From a bacterium (GTDB taxonomy: Bacteria > Patescibacteriota > Saccharimonadia > Saccharimonadales > SZUA-47): a stretch of DNA of 41,617 bases. Of this stretch, positions 17,823 to 27,797 are shown piece after piece. The position numbers and the translations under genes are program-made. How positions within the stretch are numbered: position 1 is the first letter of the stretch; each line of letters begins with the position of its first letter. The DNA is taken from contig JAUIKH010000006.1 in the NCBI GenBank assembly GCA_030430915.1, positions 1 through 41,617 on the forward strand. The letters are read 5' to 3'. Below the pieces are notes generated by a model. It was not told the DNA's origin and did no database searches. It saw nothing but the letters and a program-made list of their open reading frames with translations.

Positions 17823-19379
17823 ATGAATAGTCTCAATAAAGTAGAAAAAATTAGAAAAAGATCAAGAAAAGACCAGGCGGGGTTTTCTATGGTCGAGCTA
17901 CTAATTTCTCTAGTTGTGGCTACTCTTTTAGTCGGTGTATTATCATCAATCGTACAGAACTCTATGAGTCTAAATGCGAAAGCGGCTTTGCGATCAGAAG
18001 CAGGGTCAATTGCGTTTAAGAAGGTTCAAGATTATATAAATCTTGACTTTACGAATATCCCAATAGGAGATGTAGCTACCAGCTATGAAGTTGAAGATTT
18101 TTCAACTGAAGCCGAAAATTTAAACCTAAGAAATGTATCAGCTAAAGTGTATGTAGAACCTGAAAGTGAGCTTGACTCTACAAGTACCTCAACGACCAAC
18201 TATTCTCAAAGCATTGCCGCTGACACAGCATTTGTTAGTGGTTCAGAAATAAGCTCTATAGATGTTGATGATGCTACAGGAGACTGGTGGCGCAGAAGTA
18301 GAATGAGTGACGATAACTATTCAAATTACACCTATAGTAGGTATGCTTCAAGCCCTGATAATTTAGCCGGCCCATCAATAGATCTTGGCTCATCTCAAGA
18401 TGTCGATACAATAAGGGTGAATTGGTATGGCTGTGGCTATGGCGCTAATGATTTCAGAGTAGAGGCGAAAAACAGCAGTCCAAACACTAATAGTGGCTGG
18501 ACCACTATAGTTAGCGGTTTATCTGACAATGGTATACCTTGCTATATAGGTGACCACCCTCAGGATATAGATGTAAGCTCTAACTCAACACCGTATAGAT
18601 ACTGGAGATTGTATTTTGTAGATGCAGTAGATAGTGATTTTAGCGTAATTTCCGAACTTGAAGCATTTTCATCTGATATTCCTGGTGACACAGTTGAGCA
18701 GCGTGGCTCAGATGCTTCATCATCGCCTGGGGCACTGTATTTTAGCAGCTCAGACCTTGAAATGTCTGAGGATGGTTCCAGAGGTCACCAATCTATCGGT
18801 ATGATATTCGATCAAATAGAGGCTAATAAAGACGCCACAATAGACAGTGCTTATATTAGCTTTACTGCTGATGAGTCGAATTCAGGTGATGTAACCTTAC
18901 TTGTAAGTGCGGCAGATGTAGATAACGGAGTTGATTGGGTTGGAGATTATGCCGTAGATAATGCAGTAGATAACGACAACTCTGATGGTAGTGTAGGCAC
19001 AAATGCAAAAACTACGTGGAATCCGGCAGCTTGGAGTTCAGGAGAAAACGGACCAGACACCCAAGTAGATGTAACATCAATCGTACAAGAGATAGTAAAT
19101 AGACCAGGCTGGGATGCAGATAATAGAATGTCATTTGCTATTCAATATGTATCAGGGTCAGATAAAAGAGTTGCTGAACGTTCTCCTGCTCCGGAGCTTG
19201 TTATTAACTGGTCTGAAACCGTTGCAGTCGACGGGACTTACGTAGATAGTGATGGAGATGGAGACGTCGATAACCCAACCTTAGTAAGAGTTACAGCGAT
19301 AATTGAATATGAGGCTTTTTTGCAAACACATAAAGTTATGTATTCTTCATACATTAGGAAGTACGGGATAGGTCAATAA
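17823..19379 (+). CDS. Type IV minor pilin with discoidin-like and DNRLRE-like adhesive domains
   Basis: A 518-aa prepilin-type protein. The N-terminus has a basic leader and the class III signal GFSMVELLISLVVATLLV, with Glu at the +5 position, cut by prepilin peptidase. A domain at about 150-280 resembles an F5/8 type C (discoidin) sugar- or lipid-binding module: YASSPDNLAGPSIDLGSSQD, GYGANDFRVEAKNS, YRYWRLYF, SELEAFSSD. A second beta-sandwich domain at about 290-470 resembles the DNRLRE / carbohydrate-binding type: ATIDSAYISFTADES, DVTSIVQEIVNRPGW, SPAPELVINW. The combination suggests a tip adhesin. It is the first gene of a three-gene operon. Domain calls rest on motif recognition; the pilin call is firm. 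Confidence 0.82.
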   Translation: MNSLNKVEKIRKRSRKDQAGFSMVELLISLVVATLLVGVLSSIVQNSMSLNAKAALRSEAGSIAFKKVQDYINLDFTNIPIGDVATSYEVEDFSTEAENLNLRNVSAKVYVEPESELDSTSTSTTNYSQSIAADTAFVSGSEISSIDVDDATGDWWRRSRMSDDNYSNYTYSRYASSPDNLAGPSIDLGSSQDVDTIRVNWYGCGYGANDFRVEAKNSSPNTNSGWTTIVSGLSDNGIPCYIGDHPQDIDVSSNSTPYRYWRLYFVDAVDSDFSVISELEAFSSDIPGDTVEQRGSDASSSPGALYFSSSDLEMSEDGSRGHQSIGMIFDQIEANKDATIDSAYISFTADESNSGDVTLLVSAADVDNGVDWVGDYAVDNAVDNDNSDGSVGTNAKTTWNPAAWSSGENGPDTQVDVTSIVQEIVNRPGWDADNRMSFAIQYVSGSDKRVAERSPAPELVINWSETVAVDGTYVDSDGDGDVDNPTLVRVTAIIEYEAFLQTHKVMYSSYIRKYGIGQ

Positions 19380-19380
19380 T

Positions 19381-20184
19381 ATGAATATTCTAAGCCTAAA
19401 AAAATCACAAAAAGGACTTACAATAATTGAATTATTAATAGCAATTCCGATAGCAACAATAATACTCGTTGTAATAATGGCAGCGTTTTTTATTCAATAC
19501 ACAAATGTTTTAGCTGAATCTTCCAGAACAACATTGCGTACAAGTGGACAAGCATTGTTGATAAACCTTCAGGATGAATTACTATTTACAATAGCTTACG
19601 GTGAAACTTTGGAGACTAGCCTAACAGATCCTCATCAGCCTACTGGTGGCTGGACGAACGATTCATCTCCATTTGAGACATTAATAATTAACGAAATAGC
19701 TCTAGACTCTACTAGACGTGATGACAACCGTAACATTATAAGACAGCTCATTAATCCCTGTGAATCATCCGGTGTTACATCAAATCCAGTAGCAATAAAC
19801 AACGTAATATATTTTGTTGAAAAACCGACTGGTGAGAATTTCGGAACCTTGTATAAAAGAACGATAGTGCCTACATACGATCTATGTAGTATAGACAGAG
19901 ATACTGGCGACCCCTGTACACCAGAGTCGACTACATGTTTAGGCAATGCTAAAGCTACTACTTGTCCCGAAGGACAGGTTGGGAATAATGATTGTGTTGC
20001 TGTCGATCAAGCATTAACTGAGAATGTTGTAGACTTTCAAATTACCTATTTTGCTAAAGACAATGTAGAGACTGCTTTTCCGTCTGCTGCAAACAAAGTC
20101 GAAATAGATCTAACTCTTGGAGATAAGGTATACGGTAAAGACGTTCAGGCAAAAATTAAACACACCATTAGGAAAATTAATTAG
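19381..20184 (+). CDS. Type IV minor pilin (PilW/PilJ-like)
   Basis: A 267-aa prepilin-type protein with the cleavage motif KGLTIIELLIAIPIATIILVV near the N-terminus and a long amphipathic N-terminal helix (about 40-75). The soluble part includes several cysteines (PCESS, DLCSI, PCTPESTTC, TTCPEGQVGNNDC), likely disulfide-forming outside the cell, and ends in strands typical of minor pilins (VVDFQITYF to KIKHTIRKIN). It starts 1 nt after the stop of the preceding pilin gene and ends 2 nt before the vWA gene, so the three products are probably made together and co-assemble. PilW-like placement is by general resemblance in length and position, not by a specific motif. Confidence 0.8.
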   Translation: MNILSLKKSQKGLTIIELLIAIPIATIILVVIMAAFFIQYTNVLAESSRTTLRTSGQALLINLQDELLFTIAYGETLETSLTDPHQPTGGWTNDSSPFETLIINEIALDSTRRDDNRNIIRQLINPCESSGVTSNPVAINNVIYFVEKPTGENFGTLYKRTIVPTYDLCSIDRDTGDPCTPESTTCLGNAKATTCPEGQVGNNDCVAVDQALTENVVDFQITYFAKDNVETAFPSAANKVEIDLTLGDKVYGKDVQAKIKHTIRKIN

Positions 20185-20186
20185 TT

Positions 20187-21407
20187 ATGAAAAAGCTTCA
20201 CACATATGATAAAAATACCGAAGCTAAAGATTCGGGGTTTATTCTTGCATCGCTAGTTTTTTTTATGCCTTTAGTGATTATACTAAGCACTCTAGTGATT
20301 GGCTATGCGCTGCAAGCTTACCAAACAACTATCAGGCAAGAGTATATAAAGCAGGCTCAGTTAGCTAGCGTTACTGCCATGGAATTTGCCAAAGAGCAGT
20401 ACGAGCTGGACGTTTCTTATACCGGTACGCCTGAAACTACTCTGTATGAAACAGATTTGTATGTAGTTAAGTATGAGGTTGTTCATAAGGGCTTCACAAA
20501 CCCAAGCAACACACAACAAGACATACAAGGAGTCGGTAGAGTATATAAGAAAGGATCACTAACCCCGCTTTATACAAGGGAGATACAGGGAAAAATAACT
20601 TATACTTCGGGTAGTGCAGCGAGTATAAAATTTATATTTATTGTTGATAATTCAGGATCAATGAGCACATCAGAATGGTTAGACAGTAAAGGCACAGTAG
20701 ATGCTTCAATAAATTATGTGCTAGACAATGTGCCTACAGCAGAGGTAGCAGTAGTGCAATATGGCACAAATACATATAACTATGAGCATAAATATGATGT
20801 GACAATACCATTTACCAGTGACAAATCAACGGCTACAACTTGGGATAGAAGGTATGGTCCGGGCAGTACAGCATACTACGATCTACAAGATCATTTACCA
20901 GCATCGCTGGCGCGTATGAGGCTCGATTCTGTCTATGGTCCGTATGACGAACTAGATTTATCAGGAGCAACAGACATTCAATATGTCATATTTACAGACG
21001 GTTGGGGAGACGGTTTACCTGCAGGCCATTGTTGTTCTTTTTTGAAAAAATATCCATCCGAACCAAGTAGCTGGTACAGTAACAATGGCTCAGGCTTCTC
21101 TGTGTTATCAGGTCACGGAGAAATAAACGCCCTAAAAGACGGCAGTGTTTTTAATGACGATGGCTATCCTGGATTAACAGCGCAATTTACAATACTGAAC
21201 ATCAATAATGACGACACAGCTAAAGAAGTTTCAGCAGCGATTGCTTCTCCAGGAGGGACATGGACAGGAGCTGTTGATTCTAATCCTGGTGATCCTGAAG
21301 GAGACGGGATACTCCCTAGAAGATTTATCAGCACAACGCTATCAGCTGGTCCTACAGAGATAATCTCGTTATTAGAAGAAATAATCGAAGAAGAGTTAAA
21401 TATCTAA
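20187..21407 (+). CDS. Pilus-associated protein with von Willebrand A domain
   Basis: A 406-aa protein with one N-terminal membrane segment (SGFILASLVFFMPLVIILS, about 16-40) in the style of PilX-type minor pilins but without the Glu5 motif. A vWA domain follows from about residue 146. It has a complete-looking metal-ion-dependent adhesion site: D154-x-S156-x-S158 in FIVDNSGSM, and Asp271 in VIFTDGWGDG. vWA domains at type IV pilus tips (as in PilY1 or PilC proteins) bind host surfaces and sense force. Two adjacent cysteines (281-283 region, HCCSF) lie after the MIDAS. It closes the pilin operon and precedes the heliorhodopsin gene. The vWA call is secure; a pilus-tip location is inferred from the operon. 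Confidence 0.85.
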   Translation: MKKLHTYDKNTEAKDSGFILASLVFFMPLVIILSTLVIGYALQAYQTTIRQEYIKQAQLASVTAMEFAKEQYELDVSYTGTPETTLYETDLYVVKYEVVHKGFTNPSNTQQDIQGVGRVYKKGSLTPLYTREIQGKITYTSGSAASIKFIFIVDNSGSMSTSEWLDSKGTVDASINYVLDNVPTAEVAVVQYGTNTYNYEHKYDVTIPFTSDKSTATTWDRRYGPGSTAYYDLQDHLPASLARMRLDSVYGPYDELDLSGATDIQYVIFTDGWGDGLPAGHCCSFLKKYPSEPSSWYSNNGSGFSVLSGHGEINALKDGSVFNDDGYPGLTAQFTILNINNDDTAKEVSAAIASPGGTWTGAVDSNPGDPEGDGILPRRFISTTLSAGPTEIISLLEEIIEEELNI

Positions 21408-21467: not shown

Positions 21468-21476
21468 TGGTATAGT
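21468..21476 (+). promoter_or_regulatory. Extended -10 promoter of the heliorhodopsin gene
   Basis: TGG followed by TATAGT (21471-21476). The ATG at 21484 is 8 nt from the end of the -10, so the predicted leader is 0-1 nt. No convincing -35 box. It shows that the gene can be expressed separately from the pilin operon. Confidence 0.6.
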
Positions 21477-21483
21477 CTATTGC

Positions 21484-22467
21484 ATGGCAACAACTAAGAA
21501 TAAATCTACATCTAAAAAGAAAAATTCAAAGTCTAGTTCAGCAAAGGCTGCATCTAAGTCTAAAAAGAAAACAGCGGCAAAAAGAACCAGTACCAAAACT
21601 ACATCAGCTAAAAAAACTGACAAGAATACTAAAGTAAGTAAATCAACAAATAAATCTGCTTCTAAAAAATCTACACAGAAAAAATCAGCTAAATGGGATG
21701 ACTCAAAGAAGCTGAATGTATGGAACTATGTCATGGCTTTTCTTCATGCTGCTCAAGGAGTTGCAGTAGTTTTATTAGCTCAAAGCTCACCATTTGATAT
21801 AACGACAAATTATCTAACGGTCGACAGCCTAGCATCTAGTGAGGGGTCACCAGCTTTAGTCTCTGCAACTAGGACATTATTTGATATTAATCTAGCTTAC
21901 CTAGTGGCAGCGTTCTTCTTCATGTCAGCCATTGCGCACTTAATAATAGCTACAATTTATCGTAAGAAATACGAAGAAAACCTTAAAAAGGGTATTAACA
22001 AAGCACGCTGGTATGAGTATGGCATAAGTGCCAGTACTATGATGATAGCAATTGCTATGCTTAGTGGCGTATCTGACTTATCAACACTATTATTGATATT
22101 TGGTACAACTTTGGTTATGAATCTACTAGGATTGGTTATGGAAATACACAACCAAACGACTAAAAACACCAAATGGATTAGTTATGTCGTTGGAACAATC
22201 TCTGGACTATTACCTTGGGTAGTTGTTGGACTATACCTCTGGGGATCAAATCAGTATGGAGAGGGTGACATACCTACTTTCGTTTACTGGATTTACGGTA
22301 GTATATTTGTCTTCTTCAGTAGCTTTGCTGTTAATATGTATCTTCAATACAAGAAGATCGGTAAGTGGAGCGACTACATATATGGTGAAAAAGCTTACAT
22401 GGTACTAAGTCTAGTCGCTAAATCAGCTCTAGCTTGGCAAGTTTTCTTTGGCGCTTTAAGACCTTAA
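21484..22467 (+). CDS. Heliorhodopsin with lysine-rich N-terminal tail
   Basis: A 327-aa seven-helix retinal protein of the heliorhodopsin family. Helices lie at about 79-100, 134-158, 174-196, 199-222, 231-253, 264-288 and 303-325. Helix 3 has the family motif RWYEYGISAS with the counterion Glu178; helix 7 has SLVAKSALAWQVFFGALRP with the retinal Schiff-base Lys313. Their separation (135) is close to that in the type protein 48C12 (E107 to K241). His88 in helix 1 and His152 in helix 2 correspond to its conserved histidines. Heliorhodopsins sit with the N-terminus in the cytoplasm, opposite to type 1 rhodopsins. The first 70 residues are unusual: 24 Lys, 1 Arg, one Asp, the rest mostly Ser, Thr and Ala. 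No retinal-synthesis gene is nearby. Function is probably sensory or regulatory, not pumping. Confidence 0.93.
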   Translation: MATTKNKSTSKKKNSKSSSAKAASKSKKKTAAKRTSTKTTSAKKTDKNTKVSKSTNKSASKKSTQKKSAKWDDSKKLNVWNYVMAFLHAAQGVAVVLLAQSSPFDITTNYLTVDSLASSEGSPALVSATRTLFDINLAYLVAAFFFMSAIAHLIIATIYRKKYEENLKKGINKARWYEYGISASTMMIAIAMLSGVSDLSTLLLIFGTTLVMNLLGLVMEIHNQTTKNTKWISYVVGTISGLLPWVVVGLYLWGSNQYGEGDIPTFVYWIYGSIFVFFSSFAVNMYLQYKKIGKWSDYIYGEKAYMVLSLVAKSALAWQVFFGALRP

Positions 22468-22476
22468 GTAAATCTA

Positions 22477-23751
22477 ATGGTTAAGAAAAAACAGATAATT
22501 AAATCTGTTAAACTTGATAAGTTTGTTCATGGCGGGCAAGTTATTGGCACTCTGTCTAGCGGAGAAAAGATACTTGTTTGGAACGGTTTACCTGATGAAG
22601 TAGCTGATATTGAGGTGATTAAGAAAAAAGGCTCATACTATGAGGGCTTGGCAATAAACATAATTGAAACTAGTAAAGACCGAATAAATCCAAGAGAACC
22701 TAGCAGTTATCTATCCACGTCTCCTTGGCAAATACTAGATTTTGATGCCGAAAAAGGTGCAAAACAAGCCATTCTTATAGAGACTCTCGAAAGAGAAGGG
22801 CTAACTAGTTTGGCATTCAGGCCTTTTTTAAATGACATCCAAGAGTTTAACTACAGAAACAAACAAGAATTTGGGTTTTGGGGCGACGATACTGGCTTAA
22901 ACCTAGCTCATTATATGAGGGGCACTCACAATAAAGTGAAGATTAACGGTAGTGATCTGGCCAAACAAGAAATTAATTTGGCTGCCAGAGACTTAAGAGA
23001 TGAGTTAAATAGACTAAATGTATGGGGCGGTAAACTAAAAACTTTAGTTGTGCGTAGCTCAAGACAAAAGGAAGTAGTTTCTGCTTTGTTTATTAAGGAA
23101 GACATAAAGGAACTAGCAGACTTTAAGCTTCCAAAAACGTTAAAAGGGCTGGATATATACTTGTCAGATCCAAGAAGCCCGGCGGCGGTTGTAACTAAGA
23201 ATTTATATTCATTTGGTGATATAAACTTAGTAGATAGGGTAATGGGCGCTAATATCACATATGATGTAATGTCGTTTTTTCAAATAAACCTACCGATGTT
23301 TGAGATGACACTAGAAGACATAAGGCGCATATCAGAAGGACTACCTGTGATTGATATGTATAGTGGTGTAGGGACTATAGGTCTAAGTCTAGAAAATACT
23401 CAAGCCATAGTAGAAACAGATACAAATAATATAAACAAGGCGCTTGTAAATGCTAAAAAAAGCTCAGTTAAAGTTATTCATGCATCCTCCGAAAAAGCTC
23501 TAGAGTATATACCTAAAGACGGAGCTCTTGTGCTTGATCCACCTAGAGCAGGGTTACATAGAAAGGTTATCGAGGGAATTCGGCAGGCTAAACCAGAAAA
23601 AGTAATTTATTTGAGCTGCAATCCTTCAACACAAGCTCGGGATATAAAACTGTTAGCTGACATATATAAGGTTGATTTTATACAGGGCTATAATTATTTC
23701 CCCAGGACTCCACACATAGAGAGTCTGGTCTCACTCACCAAGGTTGATTAA
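22477..23751 (+). CDS. RNA (uracil-5-)-methyltransferase, RlmD/TrmA family
   Basis: A SAM-dependent enzyme that makes 5-methyluridine in rRNA or tRNA. The 424-aa protein starts with a TRAM-type RNA-binding beta-barrel (about 5-65, VHGGQVIGTLSSGEKILVWNGLPDE). The catalytic domain carries a SAM-binding DMYSGVGTIGLSL, DPPRAGLHRKVIEG, and the catalytic cysteine motif SCNPSTQARDIKLL, ending in PRTPHIESLVSL. I see no CxxxxxCxxC Fe-S cluster near the TRAM domain, which E. coli RlmD has, so it is nearer to Gram-positive Fe-S-free members. The target base cannot be told from sequence alone. It begins 9 nt after the heliorhodopsin stop and is probably co-transcribed with it. Confidence 0.9.
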   Translation: MVKKKQIIKSVKLDKFVHGGQVIGTLSSGEKILVWNGLPDEVADIEVIKKKGSYYEGLAINIIETSKDRINPREPSSYLSTSPWQILDFDAEKGAKQAILIETLEREGLTSLAFRPFLNDIQEFNYRNKQEFGFWGDDTGLNLAHYMRGTHNKVKINGSDLAKQEINLAARDLRDELNRLNVWGGKLKTLVVRSSRQKEVVSALFIKEDIKELADFKLPKTLKGLDIYLSDPRSPAAVVTKNLYSFGDINLVDRVMGANITYDVMSFFQINLPMFEMTLEDIRRISEGLPVIDMYSGVGTIGLSLENTQAIVETDTNNINKALVNAKKSSVKVIHASSEKALEYIPKDGALVLDPPRAGLHRKVIEGIRQAKPEKVIYLSCNPSTQARDIKLLADIYKVDFIQGYNYFPRTPHIESLVSLTKVD

Positions 23752-23771
23752 AAAATTGCTTATGCTATGAT
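23744..23771 (+). promoter_or_regulatory. Promoter of the 23810 membrane protein gene
   Basis: TTGATT (23744-23749), a 16-nt spacer and TATGAT (23766-23771) preceded by TGC. The gene then has a strong AAGGAGG (about 23798-23804). The -10 overlaps a TTATGC/GCATAA inverted repeat. Confidence 0.6.
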
Positions 23772-23809
23772 AATGGCATAAATATATCAAAATAAAAAAG
23801 GAGGGGCAT

Positions 23810-24631
23810 ATGTCCCCAGAAAATAGTCAAAATATAAAAACTCAATTCAGCCCACCAGAGCATAGTGGTTCGCCACAAAACTCTCAACTGCCAAAACAGC
23901 ACGAGCCACAAACCAATGTGCCCAATACCAATACCAATAGTAATAGTGTAGGAAGTTTACATAATGTTCCTACTGATCAGCAAACGAGCACAGTAAATCG
24001 ATCCATTAATCAGCCCGCTAACGACAAAGTAAAAGAAACTTCAACATGGAATAAGATTCCAAAGATGTCTTCATCTAAAAGTGCTGGCTTTAGTGGCCCT
24101 CAGACAAATGAAGCCAAGCCTTCTGATAGTAGTGATATTAATTTTGGTATGGGTTCATTTAAAATAGACCAAGAATCTAAAGAGTCGGTACCCGTGGTCA
24201 AAGTTTGGAGTGTTAGGGGTGTTGAATACGCGATAATGAGTTTCATGCTTTGGTCAATAGCGATATCAGTTACCTGGGTAATTGTGTCTTTAATAAATGG
24301 TCTATCTGGCTTTGGGGCTTTATCACCTCCTTTAGCTCTACTAATAGTTAGCTTGCCTTTTTTTGCGGTTTTCTTTCTACGATTAAAAAAAGCAGAACTT
24401 ATACAGCCAGAACTAAAAACAGAATCAACCAAAAGACGATTTAGTCAAATTACTCAAATAGTTTCTTTTGCGGTAATATTTTTCTCACTACTAAGTATAG
24501 TCGCCAGTATACTTGCCAAAATAGGAGGTGATGAAATTGATCTAGCAAAAACCATATTCAGCGCACTAGCATTTATTGTAGTGTGGGGTACTCTATTCGC
24601 TTATTATTGGGTAGACGAACATAGAAAGTAG
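23810..24631 (+). CDS. Membrane protein with disordered N-terminus (DUF5671-like)
   Basis: A 273-aa protein. The first 120 residues are rich in Pro, Gln, Asn and Ser and look disordered. The C-terminal half has four likely membrane segments, with a polar loop FFLRLKKAELIQPELKTEST between the second and third and a final AYYWVDEHRK. This layout resembles DUF5671 membrane domains, a resemblance from memory. The gene has its own promoter and a strong Shine-Dalgarno sequence. The next small gene follows after 7 nt. A cytoplasmic, flexible N-terminal tail is expected from the charge distribution. Function unknown. Confidence 0.65.
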   Translation: MSPENSQNIKTQFSPPEHSGSPQNSQLPKQHEPQTNVPNTNTNSNSVGSLHNVPTDQQTSTVNRSINQPANDKVKETSTWNKIPKMSSSKSAGFSGPQTNEAKPSDSSDINFGMGSFKIDQESKESVPVVKVWSVRGVEYAIMSFMLWSIAISVTWVIVSLINGLSGFGALSPPLALLIVSLPFFAVFFLRLKKAELIQPELKTESTKRRFSQITQIVSFAVIFFSLLSIVASILAKIGGDEIDLAKTIFSALAFIVVWGTLFAYYWVDEHRK

Positions 24632-24638
24632 GCATAGT

Positions 24639-25187
24639 ATGAATCCAAAAAATAAACTACTCAAATACTATGTAGGCATAGGAGTTCTAGTTATATTTAC
24701 GCTAGGGTTAGCGATATTTGTTTCATCACAAGGGTCACAACAAAAAAAGGATAAACAGGTTAATGCAGCTGCTATACAGATAGCTGAAGATCTAAACGAA
24801 TATATAGAAGAAAAGCAGAAAATACCAGATGCGTTAAGTGATGTAAGTAACGTAAACATACCTGAAGAAGTGACTTATACTAAAAAACAAGATAGTTATG
24901 AGTTTTGTGTTAGCTATAATAGTGATTCCAGTAGTGGCCTCTCTGCTGATTCAATAGTATCGCAAGGTCTGTCTGGTAGCTATGGAGGTGTTGGCAGGTA
25001 TGAGTATGAGAGCAGGTACAAGCCAAGCACTCTATATGTTTCTAGCTATAGCTGGAGCGAAGGTGAGAAATGCTACGAAGTAGAACCCATTATTTATGAT
25101 AATAGATATTTCTTCAACGATGACGACAGCTACCTGAATGATTATGACTATAATTACGATGATATAAGACTGGAATCTGCTAATTAA
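24639..25187 (+). CDS. Single-TM extracytoplasmic protein, unknown function
   Basis: A 182-aa protein with a basic N-terminus, one membrane segment (about 10-30), then an outside domain starting with a helix (AAAIQIAEDLNEYIEEKQKIPDAL) and a strand region with two cysteines (YEFCVSYN and EKCYEVEP) that may pair. The last 30 residues are very rich in Asp, Asn and Tyr, acidic and probably disordered. The helix-plus-small-domain layout recalls pilin-like or pseudopilin proteins, but the GFxxxE cleavage motif is missing. It follows the upstream membrane protein by 7 nt, so the two are probably co-transcribed. I do not recognise the family. Confidence 0.6.
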   Translation: MNPKNKLLKYYVGIGVLVIFTLGLAIFVSSQGSQQKKDKQVNAAAIQIAEDLNEYIEEKQKIPDALSDVSNVNIPEEVTYTKKQDSYEFCVSYNSDSSSGLSADSIVSQGLSGSYGGVGRYEYESRYKPSTLYVSSYSWSEGEKCYEVEPIIYDNRYFFNDDDSYLNDYDYNYDDIRLESAN

Positions 25188-25208
25188 GTGCTTTAATATG
25201 CATATAAA

Positions 25209-25913
25209 ATGAGAATTCATAGATTTTATATTGGAGATGATTTAGAATTAGCAGCCAAGGTTTGGGTCAATGATAAGAATTTACTTCATCAATGGTGCAG
25301 TGTCTTAAGGTTTAAACCGGGGCAACAAATCACTCTTTTCAATAACATAAAAGAGGAAAGACTTTATGAGGTGGATGTAGTTGAGTCAAATGCAGTTCAT
25401 TTAAAATTGGTTACAGAACTCAAGCCAACACTTCCTAAAAAAGATGTGTACTTGTGTTTCTCACTTTTAAAAAAAGACAAAAATGATTGGGTATTGCAGA
25501 AGGCTACAGAGATTGGGGTAAATCATTTGCTGCCAATAATCAGTAGCAGAGTAGAGAAAAAGGGCTTAAATCTCGATAGGGCTAAAAAGATTGTTGTGGA
25601 GGCTTCCGAACAGTGTGGCAGGACAAATATACCTAGTATCAGAGAGCCAGTAGGCTTAGAAACTGCAATCAAAGAGTTGCGACAAAATAGCAACTTATAT
25701 TTTGCTGACCAGGGAGGAAAAGATTTAAACACTATAAAAAGTAATGAGGACAAGCCGGAGGTGATTTTTATTGGGCCAGAAGGTGGATGGACGGAGTCAG
25801 AGACTAAGCTGCTAAATAATTCTGAAGCAATAAAGGTAGGTCTAAGTGATTTGACTCTAAGAGCTGAAACAGCTTGTGTAGTAGCTGCATCTCAGTTGCT
25901 AACCAAAATGTAG
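25209..25913 (+). CDS. rsmE: 16S rRNA m3U1498 methyltransferase
   Basis: RsmE methylates N3 of U1498 in 16S rRNA at the decoding centre. The 234-aa SPOUT-fold enzyme has an N-terminal PUA-like RNA-binding part (RIHRFYIGDDL, VLRFKPGQQITLFN) and the C-terminal knotted domain with FSLLKKDKNDWVLQKATEIGV, EASEQCGRTNIP, IGPEGGWTESE and the closing LRAETACVVA loop that binds SAM. Length and motif order are standard. There is no Shine-Dalgarno sequence. TGGAAT (25171-25176), 17 nt, then TAATAT (25194-25199) might be a promoter 10 nt from the ATG, which would make another nearly leaderless mRNA. Confidence 0.94.
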   Translation: MRIHRFYIGDDLELAAKVWVNDKNLLHQWCSVLRFKPGQQITLFNNIKEERLYEVDVVESNAVHLKLVTELKPTLPKKDVYLCFSLLKKDKNDWVLQKATEIGVNHLLPIISSRVEKKGLNLDRAKKIVVEASEQCGRTNIPSIREPVGLETAIKELRQNSNLYFADQGGKDLNTIKSNEDKPEVIFIGPEGGWTESETKLLNNSEAIKVGLSDLTLRAETACVVAASQLLTKM

Positions 25914-25976
25914 ATTATGGTTAGATGCTCAAGCATAACAATGTTACAATTATAAAAAATAATAAAAGGTGTAAGT

Positions 25977-27020
25977 ATGAACCCAAATAGTCAACAAAAC
26001 AATGGAGCAGAACCAATAACTCCAAATCAACCACAGTCTCCGCAACCTCCGTCTGCCAACCAAAACAATGTCACAAACAATCCCGTGAGTAATCCTAATT
26101 CTAGCCAAAAAGTTTTTAACACTGAACAACAAAATAGAATTCTACAAACTCAAACACCTCAACAACCGCAGTCTCCAGCCCAGGCTCCACAACAATCCGT
26201 ACAACAGCCACAGCATCCTGCACAGTCTCAACCACAACAAACACAGTCCCAGCAACAACCTGTTGCTCAAAATCCTAGCAATCCAGTAAGCTCACAAAAC
26301 CCTAGTAATAATTCACAAACACCCCAACCCGTTGGAGGTGTAGTAAGCAGTAGTTATCCAGCTAATCAAAATCCAGTTAGTAGCCAGACTTTTCCTAATA
26401 ACGGAATGTCTGGCGGAGGCAATAAAAAGAAAAAGAATATAAAGATGGCAGTTTTTGGAGTAGCAGGGTTGGTAATTCTGTCCGGTTTGATATTTGGAAT
26501 AATGACATTTCTATCTTCTGATAAGCTAACTTTAATTGAAGAAACTGAGAGTGGAATTACTTATAAAAGACCAAAACAGTGGTTCAAAGTAGAAGAAGAA
26601 AAAGCAGATATTGCGTATGCAGACACTGAAAACAAAGAAGAATCAAAACAAGGAATGTTAATTGCTAAACAACCACTTGGTGCAAACTATGATAGTTTTT
26701 CAGACTCACAAAAAGATTTATTTGCTGAAGGCTTCAAAAAAGGTTTTAGTGATTCAAGTAGTCTAGAGAGCGATAACTGTAAAGAGACAAAGGATGTAAG
26801 TATTACTGAATCTGATTATAGTTCGTATTCCACATCTTTTATTATAGAAGCTATCTGTACAGAGTCGACCTCTTTAGGTGAAGATGCAAAAATTAAAATG
26901 CTTGTTGGAGTTAAGGGTTCTGATATCCAACTTTCTGCTATAGTAGCTACAAATGAAAATTGGGACAAAAATTCAGAGGTTTATGAGGAAATATTTTCTA
27001 GCGTTGAAATTGCAGAGTAA
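25977..27020 (+). CDS. Membrane-anchored protein with Q/P/N-rich N-terminus
   Basis: A 347-aa protein in three parts: a 140-residue stretch of almost pure Gln, Pro, Asn and Ser; one membrane segment (about 155-178) after a lysine cluster GGNKKKKNIKM; and an outside domain of about 160 residues. The domain starts ITYKRPKQWFKVEEE and contains strands and two cysteines (DNCKET and AICTES). The opening recalls PsbP-like or DUF1795-type domains, which begin with Y-x-x-P-x-x-W; this is a weak resemblance. By topology the Q/P/N-rich tail would be cytoplasmic, as in the unrelated protein at 23810. A Shine-Dalgarno sequence AAGGTG precedes the ATG. Its stop is directly followed by the ATG of the nuclease gene. 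Confidence 0.6.
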   Translation: MNPNSQQNNGAEPITPNQPQSPQPPSANQNNVTNNPVSNPNSSQKVFNTEQQNRILQTQTPQQPQSPAQAPQQSVQQPQHPAQSQPQQTQSQQQPVAQNPSNPVSSQNPSNNSQTPQPVGGVVSSSYPANQNPVSSQTFPNNGMSGGGNKKKKNIKMAVFGVAGLVILSGLIFGIMTFLSSDKLTLIEETESGITYKRPKQWFKVEEEKADIAYADTENKEESKQGMLIAKQPLGANYDSFSDSQKDLFAEGFKKGFSDSSSLESDNCKETKDVSITESDYSSYSTSFIIEAICTESTSLGEDAKIKMLVGVKGSDIQLSAIVATNENWDKNSEVYEEIFSSVEIAE

Positions 27021-27797
27021 ATGAACTATTGGTCTGAGAGAAATTTACCCTATAAGCCAGGTCAGCAAAAACCGTATAAAATTAGCCGTAGTAAAATCGA
27101 GTTATTCACTCAGTGTCCCAGATGCTTTTGGCTCGATGCAAGGCTGAAAATCAAGAGACCAAGCAGTCCGCCATTCCAAATAAATAAGGCTATCGATGAA
27201 CTATTCAAAAGTGAATTCGATATATATCGAGTTCAAGAAAAGCCTCATCCAATAATGAAAGACAATCAAATCAAAGCTGTGCCAATGAAGCATAAAGATC
27301 TAGATAAATGGCGGCATAATTTCACTGGTGTCGTGCATATTCATGAGCCGACAAATTTTCATGTTTTTGGAGCTATTGATGATGTTTGGATTAATGATGT
27401 TGGCGATTTGATAGTCGTTGACTATAAGGCTACTTCAAAAAAAAGCGAGATAACCTTAGACTCTGATTGGCAAATTATGTATAAACGACAGATGGAAATC
27501 TACCAATGGCTATTAAGACAGAACAATTTTAATGTGAGCGATACTGGCTATTTTGTTTATGCAAATGGCAATGCAGATAATGAAAGATTTGATAATAAAG
27601 TAGAGTTTACCACTAAGCTCATTCCATACACAGGAAGTTCTAATTGGGTCGATGATACTTTGCTTCAAATAAAAAAATGTTTGGACAGCGATAAGATGCC
27701 AGAAGTTGGAACAGCAGCAATGGGTGGGCCTTGTGAACACTGTGAGTATGCAAGATCTAGAACAGAATTAACACTAAAAGCTTTAAAGAAAGCCTGA
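27021..27797 (+). CDS. PD-(D/E)XK nuclease-superfamily protein with four cysteines
   Basis: A 258-aa protein with RecB/Cas4-like nuclease features. The catalytic core is GAIDDVWINDVGDLIVVDYKAT (Asp, then D-x-K), followed by YKRQMEIYQWLLR, the usual Q-x3-Y helix. Two cysteine pairs, CPRC near residue 33 and CEHC near residue 236, sit at the two ends as in the Fe-S 'staple' of AddB, Cas4 and related enzymes, though the spacing (two plus two) differs from the common one plus three. There is no helicase domain or CRISPR array nearby. Start codon abuts the previous stop. Similar proteins seem conserved in Saccharibacteria and other Patescibacteria (from memory). A role in DNA repair or uptake is inferred. 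Confidence 0.8.
   Translation: MNYWSERNLPYKPGQQKPYKISRSKIELFTQCPRCFWLDARLKIKRPSSPPFQINKAIDELFKSEFDIYRVQEKPHPIMKDNQIKAVPMKHKDLDKWRHNFTGVVHIHEPTNFHVFGAIDDVWINDVGDLIVVDYKATSKKSEITLDSDWQIMYKRQMEIYQWLLRQNNFNVSDTGYFVYANGNADNERFDNKVEFTTKLIPYTGSSNWVDDTLLQIKKCLDSDKMPEVGTAAMGGPCEHCEYARSRTELTLKALKKA

Follow-up and report, generated by a model that had tools for sequence, protein, structure and literature searches.

The open reading frame at positions 21484-22467 (+ strand; ATG start, 327 aa) of the 41,617-nucleotide stretch of DNA analysed here (the window) encodes a heliorhodopsin with an intact retinal site, preceded by a lysine-rich N-terminal tail of 70 residues that is predicted to be disordered. 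The same kind of tail recurs in relatives, including several that have lost the retinal-binding lysine. The reading that we favour, with moderate confidence, is that the tail tethers the protein electrostatically and independently of light, probably to RNA, ribosomes or DNA.

The Pfam heliorhodopsin profile PF18761 is matched over its full length (profile positions 1-242 of 242, residues 77-325, E = 2.9e-92), and the closest solved structure by PDB sequence match is the Thermoplasmatales heliorhodopsin TaHeR (6is6, E = 6.7e-72). In an AlphaFold2 model built from 42 sequences, the seven-helix core (residues 77-327; 21712..22464, +) has pLDDT values mostly above 90, and a Foldseek search with this model returned 7u55 and 6is6 at TM scores of about 0.9, normalised by target. 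His88 (21745..21747, +), His152 (21937..21939, +), Arg175, Glu178 at the counterion position (22015..22017, +; TaHeR Glu108), Ser309 and the retinal Schiff-base lysine Lys313 (22420..22422, +) occupy conserved heliorhodopsin columns, matching the solved TaHeR. Glu178, Lys313, His88 and His152 were the hallmarks named in the original prediction, and all four are borne out. The window protein thus resembles the two solved members compared, TaHeR (6is6) and 48C12, in its seven-helix core, the Glu counterion in helix 3, the SxxxK motif of helix 7 (SLVAK, Ser309/Lys313), both His residues and, by charge, an N-in topology, but neither of the two carries a 70-residue Lys-rich tail.

The tail (residues 1-70; 21484..21693, +) contains 24 Lys, 16 Ser, 12 Thr, 9 Ala, 4 Asn, one Arg and one Asp, so that the count of basic and acidic residues in front of helix 1 given earlier is correct. 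Relative to the proteins encoded in the window (K 7.5%, D+E 13.7%), it is both enriched in lysine (P(K ≥ 24) = 1.3e-10) and poor in acidic residues (P(acidic ≤ 1) = 3.9e-4). It is predicted to be disordered (AlphaFold2 pLDDT 42-54), and is followed by a WDDSKK stretch (21694..21711, +) that contains two further acidic residues and forms the linker and start of helix 1, the modelled helix beginning at residue 73. Synonymous codons for Lys, Ser, Thr and Ala are mixed, and the tail DNA holds no tandem repeat, which rules out a DNA repeat artefact as its origin. The original description of the tail as histone-like holds for composition, since the C-terminal domain of histone H1, Hc1 and AlgP-type tails likewise are acid-poor, disordered and made up of Lys, Ala, Ser and Thr. 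It does not extend to family membership, as a Pfam search with the tail alone gave nothing below E = 9.7 and no histone H1, Hc1 or AlgP family, and unlike these proteins the tail is fused to a membrane protein.

Translation beginning immediately ahead of helix 1 had been raised as the case against a genuine tail, but direct reading of the sequence revealed no in-frame ATG, GTG or TTG between tail and helix 1. An extended -10 element, TGgTATAGT (21468..21476, +), ends 7 nt ahead of the tail's ATG, and a TGnTAnnnT element stands 7 nt (10 nt in one case) before this ATG in all six members of the protein's own clade. The same spacing was seen in 23 of 29 tailed genes (counted before bad starts were weeded out), 53 of 83 untailed genes (mostly from Saccharibacteria) and 125 of 881 background genes. 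A consensus promoter scan of the window found sites no more often than expected by chance, so the weight of the promoter evidence rests on conservation. Taken at face value, the spacing implies a nearly leaderless mRNA for the heliorhodopsin gene. A wrong start codon or a chance upstream ORF was ruled out by the missing in-frame alternative, the shared promoter spacing and the occurrence of the tail in all clade members. Extended -10 elements 6-7 nt before the ATG were also observed in many Saccharibacteria heliorhodopsin loci, which suggests widespread leaderless transcription.

With the tail left out of the count, the loops carry 9 K/R and 3 D/E on the N-terminal side and 2 K/R and 7 D/E on the other, and therefore the tail is very probably cytosolic, judged by this charge asymmetry only. 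This agrees with the cytoplasmic N-terminus expected in the original prediction and with the cytosolic N-terminus of other heliorhodopsins (PMC11109279). A basic, cytosolic segment adjoining helix 1 conforms to the positive-inside rule, and the tail could accordingly serve to set the N-in orientation or to bind acidic phospholipids at the cytosolic face. We regard this as unlikely, given that untailed heliorhodopsins with N-termini of 10-15 aa are abundant and 20-27 charges are hence unneeded for topology. Moreover, basic lipid-binding segments typically carry aromatic residues, which are nearly absent from the tail.

Heliorhodopsins were present in 70 of 100 relatives and in 114 of the 393 genomes sampled from the order. 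In a tree of 144 heliorhodopsin cores, the window protein falls into a six-member clade drawn entirely from its own family (SH-aLRT 100), and all six members bear Lys313 and tails of 64-78 aa with 20-27 K/R. The nearest protein outside this clade (L017) has a basic N-terminus of 26 aa. Most other heliorhodopsin N-termini comprise 10-20 aa and lack such a tail, as do most retinal-competent heliorhodopsins of the order and the heliorhodopsins sampled from Chloroflexota, Actinomycetota, Halobacteria and other phyla. Most members of a second, divergent group of about 25 Saccharibacteria heliorhodopsin-like proteins, spread over many families of the order, are tailed as well (MATTKKSTKAKTKTT etc.), and parsimony requires at least eight changes of the tail trait. 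The alignment with heliorhodopsins proposed at the outset thus places basic tails throughout the own-family clade as well as in the divergent Saccharibacteria group; on these comparisons, the tail is no oddity of one genome.

The tail also stands out from other proteins of these genomes. A screen for basic tails was passed by 18 of the 1,069 genes scanned, and all 18 are heliorhodopsin-like, so that within this sample such tails are not a trait of Saccharibacteria proteins at large. In 207 kb of the own genome, with 211 genes, the window tail is the most basic 60-residue stretch, and a protein-similarity search of that genome with the tail, a search that is weak for low-complexity sequence, found only the tail itself. 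The sampling covered the surroundings of heliorhodopsin genes and one quarter of the window's own genome, on contigs from metagenome assemblies. One genome of the same family (G002) holds two heliorhodopsin genes (L097 and L135): one canonical and tail-less on a distant branch, possibly a horizontal gain, and the other tailed, Lys-less and at the usual locus. Heliorhodopsins that share 43-45% identity with the query core are also encoded on two IMG/VR contigs classed as viral (L200 and L201).

Cytosolic N-terminal additions are known from Znf-HeR and MORN-HeR (Bulzu et al. 2021, PMC8612252). There the addition is a folded domain containing Cys or MORN repeats, in contrast to the disordered basic arm of the window protein, which is devoid of Cys, Tyr, Trp and Gly and contains neither a CxxC-x17-CxxC zinc ribbon nor MORN repeats. 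The known Znf type was also encountered at three Thermoplasmata loci (L064, L070 and L076). The same study lists ten N-terminal variants (ntv1-ntv10) in its supplement, of which the main text names the zinc ribbon only, and the basic tail may already be listed there, unexplained. The literature searched, which covered sources other than that supplement, yielded no lysine-rich heliorhodopsin tail.

Within the own clade, tails share 33-63% identity and cores 70-88%. Tail dN was lower than dS in every pair tried, with the reservation that dS is near saturation and low-complexity alignments flatter conservation. Pooled over 28 tails, lysine makes up 28% and D+E 1.7% of residues, and the net charge per residue lies mostly between 0.25 and 0.35 (range 0.18-0.40). 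This charge is independent of GC content (r = -0.11 over GC 0.37-0.52), with Arg rising as GC rises, and an AT-driven excess of lysine was ruled out on this ground. Together, dN below dS and the steady charge suggest that selection acts on the charge density of the disordered arm. They argue against a neutral low-complexity expansion without function, as do the presence of the tail in every clade member, its recurrence in the second group and the small, streamlined genome. Such an expansion would account for the fast turnover of the tails, with indels, and for the shorter basic N-termini of graded length in the sister lineages L017 and L105, but we consider it highly improbable.

Twelve of the 28 tailed proteins have lost the Schiff-base lysine, which is replaced by R, Q, A, V, I or T, and the remaining 16 keep it. 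Lys-less members of the family comprise L098 (from genome G007), L117, L118, L125, L129, L130, L133, L135, L160, L161, L164, L168, L169, L174, L175 and others, and across all Saccharibacteria Lys-less heliorhodopsin-family proteins the replacements are R, Q, A, V, L, S, E, I or T. Lysine loss requires at least nine changes on the tree, a rough count given the long branches. Tail and loss of Lys313 are associated in a Fisher test (p = 1.4e-4), but nothing is left of this after correction for phylogeny, and the statistical tie was dropped. The divergent proteins share their neighbourhood with ordinary heliorhodopsins, often after MsrA and before m5U and RsmE-type RNA methyltransferases, a shared position that suggests displaced orthologues and not new genes. 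Earlier surveys demanded the SxxxK motif (PMC8612252; PMC9166423), and Lys-less relatives were apparently filtered out there; judged by titles, the literature searched reports no Lys-less heliorhodopsins.

The protein from G007, a genome of the window's own family, has Val in place of Lys313, Gly in place of Glu178 and Ala in place of His88. Its neighbour genes are the same as those of the window family, and the start MATTTKRGA(A/T)KK is common to G007 and the tailed, Lys-bearing protein of G001. Between these two, dN is 0.31 in the tail and 0.60 in the core. Grouping G007 with the six-member clade is not rejected (p-AU 0.556) and gives a slightly better likelihood, its placement being unsure on a long branch. 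By these comparisons, selection appears to maintain the G007 tail even as the light site is being lost.

The original prediction took the tail as an output element, in which a change in the core on illumination would alter binding of the tail to nucleic acid, lipid or a partner. The own clade does keep a complete retinal site beside the tail, and other heliorhodopsins bind and regulate cytosolic partners light-dependently via cytosolic basic residues (PMC9529153; PMC11109279). However, the same tail is kept on the 12 relatives without the Schiff-base lysine, the G007 tail is more conserved than its core, and most retinal-competent heliorhodopsins of the order are tail-free. As an account of the tail, light output is quite unlikely; it is possible, yet the Lys-less tailed relatives show that the tail must be kept for some other reason as well. 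The tails on the 12 Lys-less proteins, together with the conservation in G007, therefore suggest a tail function that is at least partly independent of light.

In the window species, which keeps all retinal-site residues, the core may still be modulated by light. The absence of a retinal-synthesis gene, as originally stated, was confirmed genome-wide for phytoene synthase (PF00494) and RPE65/CarOx (PF03055), both missing from the 99%-complete genome in searches with working controls; the search for Blh (PF15461) gave no match in the genome and none for any control either. With no phytoene synthase or carotenoid oxygenase found, retinal for the window protein would have to come from outside the cell, a supply that has been argued for the type-1 rhodopsins of Saccharibacteria (PMC9296517). 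No type-1 rhodopsin was found.

With 20-27 positive charges and few hydrophobic or aromatic residues, the arm should bind polyanions. Composition alone cannot separate nucleic acid from acidic lipid or acidic protein as the ligand. In the tether that we favour, a disordered, strongly basic cytosolic arm on a heliorhodopsin bearing a retinal site would bind a cytosolic polyanion constitutively, holding the membrane protein to ribosomal or other RNA, or to the nucleoid; both the nucleic acid ligand and the light-free binding are what we infer. Three other basic arms were found in the 207 kb of the own genome, two of which belong to YidC (C-terminal; L180:3452-4405) and RNase J (N-terminal; L193:2500-4578). 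These two families work on ribosomes or RNA, and basic C-terminal YidC tails bind ribosomes. Like the window protein, YidC/Oxa1 crosses the membrane several times and extends a basic arm into the cytosol, and it is present in the same genome, but it differs in its unrelated fold, the C-terminal position of its arm and its role as an insertase. Nine nucleotides downstream of the heliorhodopsin gene lies a tRNA/rRNA m5U methyltransferase gene of the TrmA/RlmD type (22477..23751, +; PF05958), which is probably co-transcribed with it. The YidC and RNase J arms and the adjacent RNA methyltransferase are the reasons why RNA, the ribosome or DNA is favoured as the ligand, and nucleic-acid binding by the tail is a reasonable proposal.

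An m5U methyltransferase gene lies directly downstream in 19 of 28 tailed as against 2 of 66 untailed loci of the Saccharibacteria order (Fisher p = 3e-11). Corrected for phylogeny, the association is not significant, with about three usable pairs that point in the same direction, and we treat it as a lead only. This conserved neighbour in tailed loci, and the precedent of a heliorhodopsin that interacts with glutamine synthetase via Lys residues (PMC9529153), would fit a tail that recruits one specific acidic protein partner, such as the product of a neighbouring gene. A specific interface should keep a motif, and the tails share composition instead, at the 33-63% identity seen in the own clade; as the methyltransferase association is moreover not phylogeny-corrected, recruitment of a single partner seems very unlikely.

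The tether leads to a broader proposal, which we put forward only tentatively: that in Saccharibacteria a photoreceptor became, on several occasions, a membrane anchor that holds nucleic acid or ribosomes irrespective of light, by gain of an H1-like arm that was kept, together with the gene position, after loss of the retinal lysine. The window protein would then be an intermediate, both photoreceptor and tether. A tail common to retinal-competent and Lys-less members supplies a natural control with which light-dependent functions of heliorhodopsins could be told apart from light-independent ones. Should the tail bind RNA or DNA, it would provide a direct link from membrane to nucleic acid in some of the smallest known bacteria.

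The next conserved gene of the locus encodes an RsmE-type RNA methyltransferase (25209..25913, +; PF04452, synteny). In the window (22477-27797) and its relatives, the order (MsrA)-heliorhodopsin-m5U methyltransferase-RsmE-type methyltransferase-PD-(D/E)XK nuclease-probable SerRS is conserved in Saccharibacteria, and MsrA beside heliorhodopsin fits a link to oxidative stress. Directly upstream (17823-21407), the window contains prepilin-like and VWA-domain pilin-type genes that are common to members of its own family (clusters c36, c28 and c23).
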